Origin: a virus
Virus record (IMG/VR): IMGVR_UViG_3300005918_000057
Coordinates: 1-37,918 of that record
DNA: 37,918 nucleotides
Direction: 5' to 3' (one strand)
Part shown: piece by piece, positions 3,752-26,462 of the stretch
Layout: every line of letters begins with the position of its first letter
Position numbering within the stretch: position 1 is the stretch's first letter
Made by a program: the position numbers and the translations under genes
Notes under the pieces: model-generated
Told to the model about the DNA's origin: nothing
Seen by the model: the letters and a program-made list of their open reading frames with translations, nothing else
The model's database searches: none

Positions 3752-6700
3752 ATGAGTATTAGCGATGAACTTATCAGACAAGCAATGGCACAAATACCTG
3801 TTTCTGGACAGTCGCAAGAAGCAGAAGAGTCGCAAAGCCCTTCTGTTAATGACTATGTTAAACAAATGCTTCTTACTCCGCCAGATACTGTTGGCTCTCG
3901 TATTAGTGGTGGCTTTCGTGGTTCTGCTACTGGTATAGCTGCTGGTCTTATAAGTGGAAATGGTATAACTCTAAATGAGTTAAAAGCTCGTGGTGTTAGA
4001 GATCCTAACTTCATTATGGATAGCATAGAAAATGTAGCTGCTGCCATAGGTGATATTCCTGCTATGATTGCGGGTGGTATTGTCGGTAGTGCTGGTGGTC
4101 CTATTGGTGAAGTTGCGGGTGCTTTTGCTACACCTGAAGTTATCAAGTCTATCTATAGAGAATATCTTAATGCGACAGAAGGAACTGATAAGCCTTTTAC
4201 TTTTGGTGACTTTATTAAATCAACAGCTAATGTTTTTAAATCAGGTGCAATTGCTGGTGCTGAAGGTGCAGCATTTGGTGCTGTAGCTAGAGTTATGCAA
4301 CCACTAATGGGAATGAAACAATTTAAGGGATTCTTTGAAAGTGGTGCTGTTAGGTATTCATCGGCAGTTGAAAAGGGTGCTGAAAAGCTAGGTATTGATC
4401 TAATAAAAACTCCTTTACATACTCTTGAAGAGAGCGTTGTAAATAATATTCTTAAGAAATCAAGTCCTATTAGAGGTGGAATTGCTAGTGCTGTAGATGC
4501 AGCAGTAGGAAAGATCCCTACAGAAATAGGAAAGAGTGCTGCTCGTGGCAGTCTTAGTGTAGCAGCAGAAACGGCAGCCTTAACGACTGTATCATCAATG
4601 CTTGGTCAAGGTGATTTCTCTATAGAATCTTTTACTAGAAACTTAGCCGTTCTACTTCCATTTAAAATAGGTCACGCTTTTGCTAATAAGATAAAAGTTT
4701 TAGCTACTGAACATGGTTTAGATAAAATACTAAAAGAAATAGATAAAGCTGACAGCGAAACCGAAGCAAATAAGATACTACAAATAACATATCAAGAAGG
4801 TACTAGCAAAGAAACACGACAACAGAAGCTAGAGCGTAAAGGATTACAAGAAACAGAAAAAGGCAAGATAGAAGTTAAAGAACCTACACCTAGCAAAGAA
4901 ACTATTCCACAAAGAACTACTAGAGGTTTTGAGGAATTAGAATATAAAAAAGTAGATAAAGAACTTATTGCCGAAGAGAAGCGAAAGCAAATAGAATTAA
5001 AGAAACGTGCAGATGATGAGGCTATACTTTTAGGAGCTAGCGAAAAGGCAAAGAGACTAGCAAGGAGAGAACCAAAACCATCTATTGATCCTAGAGGTGG
5101 TGAAAGATTTCAAGATAAACTAGAAGCTGAAAAGAAAAGGCTCGGTGATTTTGAGGTGGGAGAACGTATCACAAATAATAAAATACGCGATGGAAAAATT
5201 CTTAAGAAAAATAAGCAATATGCTGAAATAGAAACACCTGATGGAAAAATAAAGCGTCGTCTTATATCTGAAATGTTTACTGAGTTTATTCCTGAGGAAG
5301 TACAAAAGAAAGCTGTAGAGCGAGTTAAGGCAGAAGAAGAAGCAAGGAAAGCAAAGATAAAAGAAGAGCGTTTAAAAACTATTAAAGATCAAGGCGAGAA
5401 ACTTAAAACTGAAAAAGCTTCTGAGTATGCTCCTGGATACGTTGTAGAATTTCCAATGAAAGGCGAAATTAAGACAGGAAAAGTAACAAAAGTTGGCGAT
5501 AAGACAGTCTCTATATATGATCCCAAAACAAAGAAAACTCATATCAGAAAGAAAGAAAACATCAAGGTCATAGATAAAAGTAAAGGTTCAGAGCCAGATT
5601 TATTTAAGTCTGCTAAGAAAGCAGAAGAAAACGGAAAAGGACATTTAAATGCTAACGACTGGGTTTATTCTACAAAACTTGATTCTAAAGGCGAACCAGT
5701 TAGAGAAAAGGTTGCTGTAGCAGATGATGTTAAAAGTAGAATGTCACCTAAGCCATCTAAGCCTATAGGTAGAAAGAATATTATAGAGAGTATTGAAAGG
5801 TTATTTAAGATACCTATTAGGAAAGGTTCTATAGAGGGTGATCGTACTGCTGGTATATTTAAATCTCATGAAAGAGTTATTAGAATTAAAGAAGCTTATG
5901 ATCTAGATTCAACATTTCATGAACTTGCACACGATATTGATAAGAATGTATTTGGTAGAGATTTTAAAGAAGGATCATATGACGAACTAGAACCTTACCG
6001 TCATGAGCTTGAAGATATAGCAACTCCTGCTAAAGAAGGTCAAGACCCTATTTCTGAGGGTCTAGCAGAAGGTGTTAGAATATGGTTACAAGATAAAGCC
6101 TTATCAGAAGAGTTAACACCTAAGTTTAAAAAATATTTAGAAAAAATATTAGCAGAAGATTATACAGGTACTTTAGAGCCTCTTAATGAATTAAGTAAAC
6201 AATATGAAGGCTGGAAAAATCAGAGTACCAGAAATAAATATCTTGGAGAAATGGACAATACTGTTCCTGCAACTATTCCAGACAGGGTTAAAAAATTCCT
6301 AACTAAAGAAGGCTTCTCTGAAAAGATGGGTCAAATGTGGTATGACTTTAAGGTTAATTTTGTAGATAAATACCTTGGTGTTGAGTTTTTTAGTCCTTCT
6401 GCTTATAGGAAGATGAGAATATTAGCAGGAATTAACGGTAAGATAGAATCATTTATGTTGCGTGGTACGCATGATTTTAATAACCCTTTAGATGTAACAG
6501 GAAAGGGATTACAAGAAATCATTAAACCTTCTGTAGAAGTGGCAGAACTTGGACATAGGGATTTAGATGTATATTTAGTAGCTAGAAGGGTTGAGGCTTT
6601 AGCAGGAAGAGAAAAAGAAGTTAACACACAGATGTCATTAAAAGATGCTAAAGAATTAATTGGAGATTACGAAAAGAAATATCCTCAGTTTAAGAAGACA

Positions 6701-9028: not shown

Positions 9029-9108
9029 ATATGTCTTTTTTAAATCAATAAGAATTAGTGTATAGAAAATAGCACAATCGATGCTATAGCAAAAAAATGA
9101 GGTACTTA

Positions 9109-11049
9109 ATGGGTCTTAAAGGAAAAACATCAGGGTTAAGTTATTTTAATCCATTACAGGGTAAGAAAATACCTGAACTTTATAAAGGAATTATAGCACC
9201 TACGGCAGCAACAAGAGGTGATGAAGGTGACTTCTATCTTGATACTGTTACAGATACTTATTATTTCTTAGTGGATGCAACAGCAGGCGCTTTCACATGG
9301 TCTACAGTAGTAATTAGCGATGCATCAACAACAGTAGCAGGAAAAATTCGTATAGCTACAGTCGGGGAAGCTGCTGCTGGTATTTTAACTACAGTAGCCG
9401 TAAACCCTGCAGCGTTGGCAGCTCTAGTGCTTGCTGGTTCAGTTAACTGGTCGGAAGCTGTTTCTGGTATTGGTCAACTTAGCACACTTGCCGAAGCCGT
9501 TGCCGGAGCAGATGACGATACAGCAATGACACCTCTAAAAGTTGCTGGTGTATTAGCTGCACCTCCTACAATCGGAAGTGGAACGCCTGGTGATGGTGCT
9601 TTTGCTGATCTATCTTCTACTGGTTTAGCTACTCTTGGTGCTAGTGCTACAATCGTTACTGGTGCGGTTGCATTAAGTTTAGGTGCGGATGCTGGTACTG
9701 GTGCGATTAATTGTGGTACTGGCGCTGCTGCAAGGGCATTAACGTTTGGTAATATTACTACAACAACCTCCGTTGCAATTAATTCGGGCACGGGACATAT
9801 CACTTTAACATCTACTGGAACAGGCGATATCGTCCTTGTTGGTGGTGATAAGATTACTCTTGATGCTGCGGGAACAGTTGATATTAATTCGTCTGCTGCT
9901 GCTATCAACATCGGTGATGATGATATCGACCAAGCCGTTAATATTGCCACAGATGGTGAAAGAGCTTTAACTATTGGTTCTGCTAATGGTGCTGCTTCTG
10001 TAGATGTAGTCGGTGGTACTGGTGGTATTAATGTTGCTGCTAACGCAATTGCTCAAACCTTAACTTTAGGTAATAGCACAGGTACTTCAGCTATTGCAAT
10101 GTTAGTTGGTACAGGTCATTTCACACTTGATGGTGTCGCTTCCTCGACATATAATATCGGTGCTTCAACAACTACAGGTACAATTGATATCGGTGGTACA
10201 GCACAAACAGGTACAATGACGTTTGGAGATTCCGACGGTATCAATATTATAGGCGTAGGTACTGGCGAGGGAGCTACTACCGTAAATATTGCCACAGGGG
10301 CAACGGCTGCAAAAGTAGTCCATATTGCCGATGGTGCGGTTGCTAACCTAGTTACGATCGGTTCAGCTTCGGGAGCTGCTGCTCTTACAATGTACGCTGG
10401 TACTGGAAACTATACCTTGGATGGTGCTGCAACTACTACATATACCATAGGTGCGACTACAACAAGTGGTACTATCACAATAGGTGGAACAGCTCAAACT
10501 GGTACAATGACTCTTGGAGACTCTTCAGGAATAAATATTATAGGCGTAGGTACTGGCGAGGGAGCTACTACCGTAAATATTGCCACAGGAGCAACAGCAG
10601 CGAAAGTAGTGCATATTGCCGACGGAGCAGTAGCCAATACTGTTACAATCGGTACAACTAACACAACAAGCACGACGACTATAAATAGCGGAAGCGGAGG
10701 TATTGTTCATGTTGGTAAAGCGATCTTTACACCTGATGCGATTACAGCAGTTAGTGGTGGTGGTACTGCAGCTTCGCTTCTTACTGTAGTTACAGAGATT
10801 ACAACAAACGGAGATGTTGACTTGGATGTGGTAACTTTAGCAAATGGCGTAGACGGTCAAATTAAGATCTTTGCGGTCGTTGCCGTTGGTAATGGTGGAG
10901 ATTCTGTTAAGATTACTCCTGCTAGTATGATTGGTGGAACTCAGATAACGTTTAGTGCCAACCCTTTAGGTCTTGGTTGTCAGATGTATTATGATGCTGG
11001 TGTTGCGGGCTGGATCGTGACAGGGAATAACGGAGGAACTGTGGCTTAA
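9109..11049 (+). CDS. Repeat-rich tail fibre / appendage protein
   Basis: A protein of about 646 aa. An ATG at 9097 is in frame, but GAGG at 9099-9102 is well spaced for the ATG at 9109, so the later start is preferred. The N-terminal 60 residues (GDEGDFYLDTVTDTYYFLVD) resemble fibre modules that precede repeats. Residues about 100-540 are Gly/Ala/Thr/Ile repeats such as NIATGATAAKVVHIADGA and TIGGTAQTGTMT, expected to form a beta-solenoid or triple-stranded shaft. One repeat of 97 codons occurs twice, with 56 bases identical. The C-terminal 100 residues are less repetitive and could be the tip or trimerisation part. The role is inferred from composition and from its place after the ejection genes. 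Confidence 0.7.
   Translation: MGLKGKTSGLSYFNPLQGKKIPELYKGIIAPTAATRGDEGDFYLDTVTDTYYFLVDATAGAFTWSTVVISDASTTVAGKIRIATVGEAAAGILTTVAVNPAALAALVLAGSVNWSEAVSGIGQLSTLAEAVAGADDDTAMTPLKVAGVLAAPPTIGSGTPGDGAFADLSSTGLATLGASATIVTGAVALSLGADAGTGAINCGTGAAARALTFGNITTTTSVAINSGTGHITLTSTGTGDIVLVGGDKITLDAAGTVDINSSAAAINIGDDDIDQAVNIATDGERALTIGSANGAASVDVVGGTGGINVAANAIAQTLTLGNSTGTSAIAMLVGTGHFTLDGVASSTYNIGASTTTGTIDIGGTAQTGTMTFGDSDGINIIGVGTGEGATTVNIATGATAAKVVHIADGAVANLVTIGSASGAAALTMYAGTGNYTLDGAATTTYTIGATTTSGTITIGGTAQTGTMTLGDSSGINIIGVGTGEGATTVNIATGATAAKVVHIADGAVANTVTIGTTNTTSTTTINSGSGGIVHVGKAIFTPDAITAVSGGGTAASLLTVVTEITTNGDVDLDVVTLANGVDGQIKIFAVVAVGNGGDSVKITPASMIGGTQITFSANPLGLGCQMYYDAGVAGWIVTGNNGGTVA
10243..10298 (+). repeat. 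56-bp direct repeat, copy 1
   Basis: This segment is identical to 10534-10589, 291 bases (97 codons) downstream and in the same frame. It encodes part of the fibre shaft (IIGVGTGEGATTVNIATG). Identity at third codon positions points to a recent duplication or ongoing gene conversion. Confidence 0.9.
10534..10589 (+). repeat. 56-bp direct repeat, copy 2
   Basis: Identical partner of 10243-10298 within the same fibre gene. The flanking bases differ mostly at synonymous positions, so the exact match is a conserved core inside a longer, diverged repeat. Confidence 0.9.
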
Positions 11050-16651: not shown

Positions 16652-16848
16652 GAACACTTAGCTTGTTATTGTTTTTAGTGCTATTAGCTGGTTGTGCTCA
16701 AATGAGAACACTTACAAAAGCATATCAAGCACTACCAGCTGATAATGTTGCAGAAGAATTTATTGAAGGTATAATCGAAGTTAGTGTTGAAGCTTCAACA
16801 GGGCAGAATGTTCATATAGATATTAGTGGAGATTCTCCTGAGAAGTAA
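16648..16848 (+). CDS. Small lipoprotein (possible outer-membrane spanin)
   Basis: A 66-aa protein whose first 17 residues (MRTLSLLLFLVLLAGCA) are a lipoprotein signal peptide with an LAGC lipobox; the cysteine is residue 16. The mature part is about 51 aa. This is the clearest sign of a Gram-negative host. Small lipoproteins at the end of late operons are often the outer-membrane spanin (Rz1-like), but Rz1 is usually proline-rich and this one is not, and the upstream gene lacks the membrane anchor expected of an Rz-like partner. A superinfection-exclusion or other cell-surface lipoprotein is a fair alternative. Confidence 0.65.
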   Translation: MRTLSLLLFLVLLAGCAQMRTLTKAYQALPADNVAEEFIEGIIEVSVEASTGQNVHIDISGDSPEK

Positions 16849-17065
16849 CCTTTGCTTTAATGCTATCGTAATATTGCGGTAGATATTTCTTTGCAAACTC
16901 CACAACTTCCTCATTACTCATAAAAACTGTATCAAAGAACGCTGTTTTTTCTATAAGCAACGATATTTTAAGAATCGGCTTATGATTTTCGTCAGGTAAA
17001 GTGTCAAATACGTTCATAAAGTTCTCGTTCATAAAGTTCTCGTTAAAAGTGTCAAATCCTTGCAT
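16823..17065 (-). CDS. Unknown 80-aa protein with N-terminal NENFM repeat
   Basis: The ATG follows AGGAGAACTAT. Residues 8-18 are a short tandem repeat (NENFMNENFMN) encoded by a 15-base repeat. The rest is helical and acidic (SNEEVVEFAKKYLPQYYDSI). It overlaps the convergent lipoprotein gene by 26 bases and is the last gene of the minus-strand recombination operon. I do not recognise it. The repeat makes the N-terminus prone to slippage, so length may vary between relatives. Confidence 0.45.
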   Translation of the reverse strand: MQGFDTFNENFMNENFMNVFDTLPDENHKPILKISLLIEKTAFFDTVFMSNEEVVEFAKKYLPQYYDSIKAKVTSQENLH

Positions 17066-22837: not shown

Positions 22838-23369
22838 TACAACAGTACCAAGAGTTTTTACGTTTGATGATGTAGACTGTAAAAGAGCGGAAATACCGAT
22901 ACCACCAGCTTCATGAATATTTATTGCTGATGATGATTTTATGAGAATTAGAGAGCTTGCGTTAATAATTAACAAAAAGTATCCGAAAATGATCATCGAC
23001 ACATCGAGACAAAACAGCGTAATACCATTTTATACTGGTGAGCAAGTAATGGATTATCTACCAGCGCATCAAGATGATTACATGTGTGCTTTTATCAATT
23101 ATAACATGTTATTTAAGAGTGGTGTTGAAATATTTGAAGCTTGCCGAGAGTTTAATAAAACAAAGTCATTACGTGTATTACCAACCATCGGCTTTAGCAC
23201 ATTAGCAAAAGATAAAGATGCATGCATTAAAGCTGGCATGGCTGATTTTATTACGTTGCCTTTTATTGATCAAAAGGTATGCCAAGTCATGCGTAACATC
23301 GAGTTATTGCAATGGGCTTTCCAGGGCAAGGGTTCATTAAAAACAACTGAATCATGTGCGGTAATGTAA
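22830..23369 (+). pseudogene. Receiver-domain-like gene broken by an in-frame TGA
   Basis: The ATG at 22830 has a GGGAG site and overlaps the previous gene. The frame runs 28 codons to TGA at 22914-22916, then continues open to 23369. Directly after the stop comes IFIADDDF, the first strand and acidic cluster of a CheY-like receiver, then GVEIFEACREF and KAGMADFITLPF. The phosphoacceptor place reads Asn90 (FINYNM) and the usual K-P reads L-P, so the receiver looks unable to be phosphorylated. Starting at the later ATG (22941) would lose the first strand. Either the gene is inactivated by one base change, or the stop is read through. It could be a sequence error. Confidence 0.6.
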
Positions 23370-23380
23370 GGAGGTATAAG

Positions 23381-23617
23381 ATGGCTACAGTAGCAGCTAG
23401 ATATTTAAGAAATGGATCTATAACATGGCGAGTGCAATTTAGAAGAGTAGGGTGCCCTTGGTTTTCTAAGTCTTTTACGTCTAAAAAGGAAGCAAGAGAA
23501 TATGCCATAATGCACGAAGCTTCTTTCATTGAAAATCCAGAAAAATATATTAGAGATCAAAACTTTTTAGAGGATATGCGAAAAAGAGAGTTTAAAAGAA
23601 AGCCTAGAGGTCTTTAA
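23381..23617 (+). CDS. Stand-alone integrase-arm/AP2-like DNA-binding protein
   Basis: A 78-aa protein started by a perfect AAGGAGGT seven bases before ATG; an earlier in-frame start lacks such a site. Residues 6-50 (ARYLRNGSITWRVQFRRVGC, then KSFTSKKEAREYAIMHE) match the three-stranded arm-type DNA-binding domain that begins many tyrosine integrases, also seen in AP2-like proteins. No catalytic domain follows. It may act as a small DNA-binding regulator or excisionase-like protein, or be the remnant of an integrase. It ends the early operon, followed by hairpins. Confidence 0.65.
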   Translation: MATVAARYLRNGSITWRVQFRRVGCPWFSKSFTSKKEAREYAIMHEASFIENPEKYIRDQNFLEDMRKREFKRKPRGL

Positions 23618-23996: not shown

Positions 23997-25052
23997 ATGA
24001 CATCATATCAATTAACTTCTGAAGTTACTGCAATAGGAGAAATCAGTGTGACAGGAAATGTAATTCCCTCTCATTGGTTGCAAGCTATAACATTCGATAA
24101 CGGTAAGCCATATTTTGTAGCAGTAATGTTATTAAGTGAGATTAGATATTGGTATACACCAACTGAAATAGAAGATGAAGAGACAGGACTTGTAGTCAAA
24201 GTAAAAAACAAATTTAAGGCAGATTTTCTTCAAAGGTCTACAAAAAAATTAGCTGAAAAATTTGGTTTTTCAGAAAAACAAGTAAAGGATGCGTTACGCT
24301 TTTTAGAGAAAAAAGGGTTCATAAAACGACATTTTCGTACTATTTCATATGGTGATGGAATCGTAGCCTCTAACGTTCAGTTCATTGAGATTATTCCAGA
24401 ATCAATAAGGAACATTCAAAAAATCCCTACCTATGGACGTGCAAGTCCTAGCGCCAGGACGTGCAAGTCCGAGGGGGAGGACACCCAGGGGGGGACGTAT
24501 ACAAAGAATACTACATCTATTACTACAAATATTTATAAAGTCAATGAAGAGGCAAAGCCTCAGTCAATGCCCTCACAGAAAAAGAAGATTAAGAATCCAA
24601 TAGACTTTCTTGAAACATCAGAAGAAAAAAAATACTATCGTACTCTTATCAAGCTTGTTCCAGAGGAAGGGAAAAGTCTTGATCCTTCATCCGTGTCAGC
24701 ATGGATAAAAGAGTTTGGAGTCTCTCGAGTAAAAGAATCAGTTATTGTGTACTGGGAACAAGTAGCTAAGTCTAAAAACGATGTAAAAGTACCAATTCCT
24801 AGAGAAGCAGGGGGTTATATTCGCAATATATTAAATAATCTTACGATAAAGCCTGAAAATGATAACACTAGAATGAATAAAGAATATGCTAAAGAGCTAT
24901 CTAAAAATAACTTACATGTAAAAGCGTTGGATAAGTACGCTAAAATAGAAGCTGGCTCTTTCATTGATGAGATTTATTATAACGCACCACCAGAAGCCTT
25001 CAAAAAGTGGTTGAATGATAAGATTGAAGCATCAAAAGAATATGCTGCTTGA
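23997..25052 (+). CDS. Replication initiator-like protein (winged helix)
   Basis: A 351-aa protein with AAAGGAAAG upstream. Residues 20-125 carry a winged-helix region: NVIPSHWLQAITFDNGKPYF, a hydrophobic helix, then KKLAEKFGFSEKQVKDALRF and LEKKGFIKRHFRTI. This layout is common in phage and mobile-element replication proteins. Residues 145-180 are a low-complexity linker. The C-terminal part (about 190-351) is helical, with VPEEGKSLDPSSVSAWIKEF and REAGGYIRNILNN, possibly the part that recruits the host helicase machinery. The linker DNA contains two iterons, a G-rich run and an AT-rich stretch, as in the lambda O gene. No helicase or polymerase is encoded nearby, so host enzymes are presumably used. 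Confidence 0.7.
   Translation: MTSYQLTSEVTAIGEISVTGNVIPSHWLQAITFDNGKPYFVAVMLLSEIRYWYTPTEIEDEETGLVVKVKNKFKADFLQRSTKKLAEKFGFSEKQVKDALRFLEKKGFIKRHFRTISYGDGIVASNVQFIEIIPESIRNIQKIPTYGRASPSARTCKSEGEDTQGGTYTKNTTSITTNIYKVNEEAKPQSMPSQKKKIKNPIDFLETSEEKKYYRTLIKLVPEEGKSLDPSSVSAWIKEFGVSRVKESVIVYWEQVAKSKNDVKVPIPREAGGYIRNILNNLTIKPENDNTRMNKEYAKELSKNNLHVKALDKYAKIEAGSFIDEIYYNAPPEAFKKWLNDKIEASKEYAA
24435..24550 (+). other. Candidate replication origin (iterons + G-run + AT-rich tract)
   Basis: GGACGTGCAAGTCC occurs at 24435-24448 and 24457-24470, exactly 22 bases apart. Each copy is nearly palindromic (six of seven pairs). A shortened GGACGT is at 24493-24498. A G-rich run (24471-24494) stands out in an AT-rich genome, and an AT-rich tract (24501-24550) follows. 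The two iterons are read in different frames (GRASP versus RTCKS), so the repeat is kept at DNA level rather than protein level. Iterons plus an unwinding region inside the initiator gene is the lambda O arrangement. Confidence 0.55.
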
Positions 25053-25124: not shown

Positions 25125-25343
25125 ATGATTAAGAAAGAATACACTAGAGAAGATAAATTTGTAGATTTAGTAAACGATATTATCATTTTACTTGCCGATA
25201 TCAGGAAAAATATACATAAGTCCATGAGTGGAAATAAAGCAGCAGCTAGGAAGGCAAGAGTCTTGCTTGTAAAGCTTGCAAAGAAAGGCAAATATTACCG
25301 AAGTCTTTCAATTATACATGTTCCAACGATCACGAAAGGATAA
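25125..25343 (+). CDS. Histone H1-like (Hc1-like) DNA-binding protein
   Basis: A 72-aa basic protein with GAGAGGA upstream. Residues 35-63 (SGNKAAARKARVLLVKLAKK, then GKYYRSLSI) closely follow the conserved core of bacterial histone H1-like Hc1 proteins: GNKAAA-x-R-x-R, KL-x-K and YR-x-x-SI. The N-terminal 34 residues are a helix as in that family. The lysine/alanine-rich tail of chlamydial Hc1 is absent. The likely role is binding and compacting DNA, perhaps phage or host chromosome. It has its own promoter and follows the replication gene. The family call is from motif memory. Confidence 0.65.
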   Translation: MIKKEYTREDKFVDLVNDIIILLADIRKNIHKSMSGNKAAARKARVLLVKLAKKGKYYRSLSIIHVPTITKG

Positions 25344-25586: not shown

Positions 25587-25958
25587 GTGGAAAAACAGTG
25601 GAAAGATTCTAAGGAAGTAAGAGAAGCTAGTAAATGCATTAAAGAAGTAAGAACTTTTCTTTTAGGTGAAGGTAATTATAGGTTTAATTCAATTATATCA
25701 GCTTTAATAACATTGCTAGTTGAAGGACTAGATAAAGTTAATATCGAAAAAGAAAGACAGTATCTATATTCTACTATCATAAAGAGTTTACTTGATAAAA
25801 TGGAAAATGATGATTTGACCTATGATCCTAAAACGGCTAGTGAATTTTTTACAAGTACCATTTGTATCAATAACGTTGACGATGACGTTGATGACAGAGA
25901 GAAAAAAGTTAAAAAAGCACTAGAAGCTTTGCTAAATATTTTTAAAACAGTTGAGTAA
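25587..25958 (+). CDS. Unknown 123-aa helical protein (GTG start)
   Basis: AGGAG lies eight bases before a GTG at 25587; a second GTG four codons later is less well placed. The protein is helical and charged, with a central hydrophobic patch (FNSIISALITLLVEGLDKV, about 31-49) and an acidic stretch near the end (NNVDDDVDDREKKVKKALEA). No family is recognised. It is followed two bases later by a zinc protein gene. Confidence 0.5.
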   Translation: MEKQWKDSKEVREASKCIKEVRTFLLGEGNYRFNSIISALITLLVEGLDKVNIEKERQYLYSTIIKSLLDKMENDDLTYDPKTASEFFTSTICINNVDDDVDDREKKVKKALEALLNIFKTVE

Positions 25959-25960
25959 AC

Positions 25961-26182
25961 ATGCAAGAAGAAGAAGACGAAGAGAAGATATTTCATTTCG
26001 AACACGATGGCGAAGCAAGTGGTACGCTTATACCTTTTTGCCCTCACTGCTACAGGTATTGTCGTGCAGGTTATGACGATGGATCTATTACGTTAGGCAA
26101 TAACGAAATAGATTGCGAGCATTGCGGTAAAAAATTCTGGTGTGAAGCCGATATTTCGTATTATTCACGGAGAGAGGAATAA
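25961..26182 (+). CDS. Small zinc-ribbon-like acidic protein
   Basis: A 73-aa protein with FCPHCYRYCRAGYDDG and IDCEHCGKKFWCEAD, that is two CxxC pairs about 22 residues apart, typical of a zinc ribbon. The first ten residues are nearly all acidic. It starts two bases after the previous stop. Such proteins in phages may bind DNA or host transcription factors; no specific role is visible. Confidence 0.6.
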   Translation: MQEEEDEEKIFHFEHDGEASGTLIPFCPHCYRYCRAGYDDGSITLGNNEIDCEHCGKKFWCEADISYYSRREE

Positions 26183-26183
26183 C

Positions 26184-26462
26184 ATGAAAATTACGTATTA
26201 TCACAAAAACGACGATGGAGGGGCTAGGATTGCCTCCTTTGGCATATACATCCCGCAATGGCATATGACCATAAACAATCTCTCTGTCATCAAAGGGAAG
26301 TCTTCAGGCTGGTTTGTTACCTTGCCCTCGTTTAAAGATAAAGATACTCAAGAATGGTGCAAAACTGTTGAATTTGATAAAGATGACGGAGAAAGATTTA
26401 TGAAAGCCGTTTGTGATGCCCTAGAACTATATGCTAAAGTTCCAGGGGTAACTATTGTCTAA
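26184..26462 (+). CDS. SpoVG-like small protein
   Basis: A longer frame opens at 26142, but GAGAGGAATAAC places the start at 26184, one base after the zinc-protein stop. The 92-aa product has IASFGIYIPQWHMTINNLSV, SGWFVTLPSFKDKD and a C-terminal helix (DGERFMKAVCDALELYAKV), the order of a SpoVG-like fold with its F-V-x-x-P-S strand. SpoVG homologues bind nucleic acid; in phages they sit in early operons near recombination genes. The match is moderate. Confidence 0.55.
   Translation: MKITYYHKNDDGGARIASFGIYIPQWHMTINNLSVIKGKSSGWFVTLPSFKDKDTQEWCKTVEFDKDDGERFMKAVCDALELYAKVPGVTIV

Follow-up and report, generated by a model that had tools for sequence, protein, structure and literature searches.

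Our analysis indicates that positions 24435 to 24547 of this viral DNA very probably form a phage replication origin that lies inside its own initiator gene and that would be opened by the initiator. The window, as we call the whole stretch of 37,918 bp, is a virus record in IMG/VR. What can be read from sequence comprises the iterons, their periodicity and their independence of reading frame, the conservation of an adjoining tract at the DNA level and a predicted winged-helix N-terminal domain. The features are as follows.

23997 to 25052, plus strand: replication initiator gene (351 aa; PHROG 270 match), containing the presumed origin.
24024 to 24433, plus strand: N-terminal winged-helix domain (aa 10 to 145; from alignments and an AlphaFold2 model), presumed to bind the iterons.
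24435 to 24448, plus strand: iteron 1, GGACGTGCAAGTCC, palindromic at 12 of 14 positions.
24457 to 24470, plus strand: iteron 2, identical to iteron 1, starting 22 bp downstream in another frame.
24479 to 24493, plus strand: third iteron, degenerate but in register (with GGAC at +22), starting GGACACCC and merging into a G7 run.
24494 to 24527, plus strand: conserved origin tract GACGTATACAAAGAATACTACATCTATTACTACA, from a profile match; presumed unwinding or strand-recognition element.
24498 to 24547, plus strand: AT-rich region, the 50-mer with the least GC in the gene (20%); it overlaps the tract, extends past it and is the presumed first DNA to melt.
24579 to 25049, plus strand: C-terminal domain, an orphan; recruitment of a helicase or primosome is presumed solely from its position.

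On the plus strand, the window holds two exact copies of GGACGTGCAAGTCC, 22 bp apart from start to start. The only other matches with three or fewer mismatches are the reverse strands of both copies, with two mismatches each, which shows how palindromic the iterons are. The original prediction described two exact, near-palindromic 14-bp iterons 22 bases apart, a partial third, a rare G-rich run and an AT-rich tract, and each of these is present: the third iteron starts at an offset of exactly 22 bp from the second, the G7 run (24488 to 24494) is the window's only stretch of at least six G or C, and the iteron block (69% GC) adjoins the AT-richest 50-mer of the gene. The boxes occupy codons 147 to 165 of 351, centrally in the gene, and the two exact copies are indeed read in different frames (phases 0 and 1), giving G-R-A-S-P from copy 1 and R-T-C-K-S from copy 2. 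When the linker was recoded synonymously 20,000 times, no 14-nt near-tandem exact repeat arose (maximum, 10), and the lag-22 autocorrelation of the window was reached by none of 3,000 dinucleotide shuffles; for a full-length ortholog of the initiator (L134; 39% identity), it was reached by 1 of 3,000. The recodings, together with the codon lock of the tract described below, support the proposal that selection acts on the DNA and not on the peptide.

Repetition alone is not unique within the window, where three more near-tandem repeats of 14 to 19 nt occur elsewhere; the context of the iterons is. A direct repeat of 284 bp (76% identity; spacing, 291) lies at 10085 to 10659 within a 650-aa ORF (9097 to 11049) whose product is apparently a repetitive structural protein, and the 15-bp CGTTCATAAAGTTCT occurs twice head to tail at 17011 to 17040, in a minus-strand ORF (16823 to 17065). 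The GC-skew minimum that had been anticipated near 24.45 kb is absent, as the cumulative skew tracks the orientation of the genes and keeps rising across 24 kb. A search of the window for DnaA boxes gave one match, below chance expectation.

We consider it improbable that the iterons are instead an operator for the initiator, or for another regulator, in control of its own transcription, with replication starting elsewhere. The palindromic sites would suit dimeric regulators, and the N-terminal domain resembles winged helices of the GntR/MarR type, but the sites are located 438 bp into the gene and not at a promoter, and the region has no more promoter-like matches than expected by chance. An operator also leaves unexplained the conserved tract, its spread over several initiator families and the grafting of iterons and tract together onto plasmids, all of which are described below.

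In a profile search, the initiator matches PHROG 270, "replication initiation protein", best (E 2.8e-15 over aa 7 to 190), with O-like and DnaD-like helicase-loader PHROGs next. Residues ~10 to 145 are 41 to 54% identical to initiators of Acinetobacter, Geobacillus, Bacillus, Staphylococcus, Eggerthella and Exiguobacterium phages. The AlphaFold2 model of this N-terminal domain (pLDDT 82) is a winged helix with a helix-turn-helix and a wing, and the closest named predicted structure is the PM1 DNA replication protein DnaD (E 3.8e-13). Its matches in the PDB are winged helices, none significant alone; the fold matches include the DnaD N-terminal domain and two initiator/Rep-DNA structures (4pt7 and 5kbj), likewise not significant. 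The C-terminal domain has no match in PHROG, and its homologs are L134 and a near-identical contig (L001) only, a further scan having added just the latter. Its model is weak and mostly helical (pTM 0.43), too weak for a fold search, which was uninformative. No helicase or loader gene was recognized among the window proteins scanned, which are encoded outside 25587 to 26460; the ORF directly downstream of the initiator (25125 to 25340) has no PHROG match. An 87-aa ORF at 23354 to 23617 has as its sole match an N-terminal integrase stretch (PHROG 1, E 0.0025), with no catalytic part within the ORF.

A single-sequence search for close relatives returned one near-identical viral contig and none among genome contigs, and an identical initiator gene is present on one 30.7-kb contig. 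Since that search was so poor in relatives, they had to be collected by alignment of the N-terminal domain; pooled with phage records, they gave 34 non-redundant linkers. Repeats directly follow the N-terminal domain in nearly all of these, and their sequences differ between relatives: TGACGTTNNAACGTCA in Geobacillus, GTAAAGACGTCTTTAC in PM1, TACGTTNNAACGTA in IME-AB2, a TGACTTNNAAGTTA-like repeat in EauM-23 and CARGTCGNNAC in L134. At 42 to 60% N-domain identity, the iteron sequence and the linker peptide both change and most relatives keep a period of 22 to 23 bp, so the persistence of iterons in the same linker that the original prediction had proposed to look for is borne out. The combined autocorrelation of the 34 linkers peaks at 22 and 23 bp (z-scores of 18.1 and 15.6, inflated by the shared ancestry of the relatives), with harmonics at 44 to 46 bp, and the single best lag is 22 or 23 in 22 of the 34 loci. 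Such a period is not a multiple of three and hence is not that of a peptide repeat. Only 9 of 32 loci have a strong palindrome that is significant, and the period is therefore the more general property. The last repeat abuts the tract in relatives too.

Two points go beyond the original prediction: other phages have the layout as well, and the neighboring AT-rich tract is itself a conserved element. Directly after the iterons, its consensus reads (GAC)AAATACAGAG-ATTACTACAGAG-ATTACTACA. A profile built from 31 relatives, with the window excluded, scores the window tract at 34.2 bits, the best site in 37.9 kb; other non-overlapping sites in the window reach at most about 8 bits, and 60 shuffles reach at most 17.1. 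The window tract has diverged (27/34), and that of L134 is weaker (20/34). When tracts are located by their peptide alone, the core Thr codons are ACA (29/29), ACT (28/29) and ACA (26/26) and the Glu codons are GAG (40/40); residue five varies, mostly among I, N and T through a single base. In pairs with less than 60% N-domain identity, the same residue is given by the same codon at a frequency of 0.89 in the tract versus 0.46 in the N-terminal domain for the same residue kinds, and for Thr alone these values are 86% and 27%. The tract is still 32 to 41% GC in six GC-richer genes (N-domain GC3, 0.47 to 0.81). These comparisons indicate that the tract codons are locked far beyond the needs of the peptide and that the tract is conserved at the DNA level; given its near-constant frame, a peptide constraint may act on it as well. 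In the open-access papers that our search covered, we found no description of the tract or its peptide, the one match being an unrelated clinical paper.

Pattern scans located the tract in at least 120 viral stretches and in 84 bacterial-genome stretches, a good number of the latter being chance matches in unrelated genes. The viral matches that we inspected lie, with few chance exceptions, in replication initiators behind repeat-coding linkers. No match to the window N-terminal domain at 1e-5 is found for 69 of the 120 viral matches listed, and tract-bearing representatives belong to PHROGs 428, 9773, 6493, 186 and 22444 besides 270. The hosts include Bacillota, Gammaproteobacteria, Cyanobacteria (L274), Aquificota (L241), Desulfobacterota (L213) and probably Campylobacterota (L225). 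As judged from these matches, the tract recurs in at least five further initiator families and in several phyla. The 32% GC initiator of Xanthomonas phage SU1 (L316; OR842880.1), which is placed in Rockefellervirus, has nearly the same linker peptide as L026, and the Xanthomonas host label may be wrong.

Two cases separate the DNA from the peptide. In Thermoanaerobacter (L255), the tract lies in a 418-aa initiator-like gene but is read in another frame, as YYRDYYRD. Bacillus plasmids of the pBSG3 type carry an insert of ~170 bp with iterons and tract that is 76% identical to the origin region of phage PM1; the insert is non-coding, contains no initiator domain and is cleanly absent from sibling plasmids. 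In pBSG3 itself (L305; NC_014104.1), the PM1-like insert lies at about 679 to 848, and the siblings are L310 and L311. The pBSG3-type plasmids are small and mobilizable and have their own rep gene; through the insert, the plasmid could exploit phage replication, or the insert could serve as a decoy for the phage initiator. A stop-containing pattern, tried for more initiators with another frame, gave only six chance matches in unrelated genes. Elsewhere, a CRISPR-like array of Soehngenia longivitae (L224) has the tract GAGAATACTACAGAGATTACTACAAAGAATACTACA among its spacers, twice, in a duplicated block (4917 to 4952 and 5181 to 5216), which is apparently immunity directed against a conserved phage origin. 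In Neobacillus massiliamazoniensis (L254 and L260), the tract is non-coding on the minus strand at ~2922 and ~4659, about 200 to 300 bp upstream of another winged-helix replication-type gene, and is possibly a relic or a non-coding origin.

The distribution of the tract also bears on the idea, to which we give slightly less credence than to an operator, that the tract is a recombination joint at which phages swap C-terminal domains, conserved for exchange and not for melting. Homology to the window usually ends in or soon after the tract, with different C-terminal domains beyond it; the tract is common to different N-domain families; and the RepA_N-related initiator of pPR9 is reported to be a chimera joined at the origin region (PMC5703833), though it is without the conserved tract. 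A joint of this kind can coexist with an additional role as an origin, but it leaves unexplained why the tract adjoins the iterons and why both are found in the non-coding plasmid graft. Least probable of all is that the linker is a low-complexity, Thr/Glu-rich peptide whose constraint, with common descent, accounts for repeats and tract: one tract frame is indeed used in 117 of the 120 viral matches listed (the other three being chance matches), but the period of 22 to 23, the codon lock far in excess of that in the N-terminal domain, the AT-rich tract kept in genes with GC3 as high as 0.81, the different frame of L255 and the non-coding pBSG3-type copies already largely refute a peptide-only account of the DNA.

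We accordingly retain the interpretation of this region as an origin, against which we count the lack of a GC-skew minimum, the diverged window tract, the near-constant tract frame and the lack of a recognized helicase or loader. The mechanism that we propose is drawn by analogy with lambda (PMC7466680) and pSK41 (PMC5703833). Copies of the initiator would bind the 22-bp-spaced palindromic iterons via the N-terminal winged helix and would stack at intervals of two helical turns along the same face of the DNA, and this stacking would strain and open the adjoining AT-rich tract. One strand of the opened tract would probably be recognized specifically, as the exact sequence of the tract suggests, and the C-terminal domain would then recruit the helicase or primosome of the host. 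All of these steps, from binding and melting to strand recognition and helicase recruitment, are what we infer, as are initiation at this site and the specific role of the tract. More tentatively, and with somewhat less than even confidence, we suggest that the 12-nt-repeat tract ATTACTACAGAG may be an element at which a single strand is recognized in a sequence-specific way, equivalent in phages to the DnaA-trio/DnaD recognition element, that is common to at least six initiator families across several phyla and stays constant while iterons and DNA-binding domains diversify.

The melting region of lambda is usually described simply as AT-rich, whereas here a defined sequence is kept almost letter for letter, and it is constant across initiators that share little else while their binding boxes change freely. 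How an initiator chooses and holds one strand thereby becomes directly testable. With the tract as a DNA signature, phage origins can be sought in genomes that lack annotation, and the tract also offers examples of a phage origin grafted onto plasmids and of its tract captured as a CRISPR spacer.

The layout resembles that of lambda ori/O and P22 gp18, in which the iterons lie inside the initiator gene just past the N-terminal domain and are followed by an AT-rich tract. In lambda, the minimal unwinding unit is two iterons plus the AT-rich region (PMC7466680). The lambda iterons (L303; annotated at 435, 455, 479 and 502) are imperfect inverted repeats with 20- to 24-bp spacing, similar to those of the window, but the iteron sequence of the window is unrelated. 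With an N-domain profile in a two-sequence search, lambda O is not significant (E 0.16) and P22 gp18 is weak (E 0.0024 but only 5 bits), and the AT-rich tracts of lambda and P22 are not significant as members of the conserved tract. Homology of the N-terminal domain therefore does not place the protein in the lambda O family, nor does an adjacent P-type loader gene, none being recognized among the neighbors scanned. These comparisons favor the original view of a lambda O/ori layout built from unrelated sequence, although weak matches to the O-like PHROGs 391 and 345 may reflect remote kinship.

Among the RepA_N plasmids, pSK41 has an N-terminal domain that binds boxes central in rep and a linker that is what ori encodes, and RepA_N initiators have variable, host-related C-terminal domains (PMC5703833). 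The window fits pSK41 and pTZ2162 in its predicted winged-helix N-terminal domain, the position of its boxes in mid-gene and its linker encoded by the presumed origin. It differs in that its iterons are not on a poly-A center, and the RepA_N Pfam domain (PF06970) has no match in the initiator up to E 1, which places it outside that family. The initiator of pPR9, considered as an experimentally tested carrier of the tract, was ruled out by the lack of one.

At oriC of Bacillus subtilis, where paired TnnT is reported as the DnaD motif and repeated TAG trios (3'-GAT-5') as the DnaA motif in the unwinding region (PMC10201434), initiator boxes likewise adjoin a short repeated element in the melting region. 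By inspection, each 12-nt unit of the consensus tract contains TnnT (as TACT) in its top strand and TAG in its bottom strand, as in the DnaD and DnaA motifs. The initiator here is not DnaA, however, and the unit is 12 nt instead of 3; the likeness to a DnaA-trio or DnaD recognition element is a resemblance only, and a link to DnaA or DnaD is speculation.

With the PHROG 270 initiators of Bacillus phage PM1, Geobacillus PT9.1 and Acinetobacter IME-AB2, the window shares a homologous N-terminal domain, iterons at ~22 bp and the tract in the same place, although it has its own iteron sequence and an orphan C-terminal domain, and several of these phages have next door a helicase or loader gene of a kind not seen among the window proteins scanned. 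The product of 23997 to 25052 belongs to this group by its significant profile match, and it also has a trait that emerged from this analysis and lies outside the family's own definition, a linker array with a period near 22 bp plus the conserved tract.
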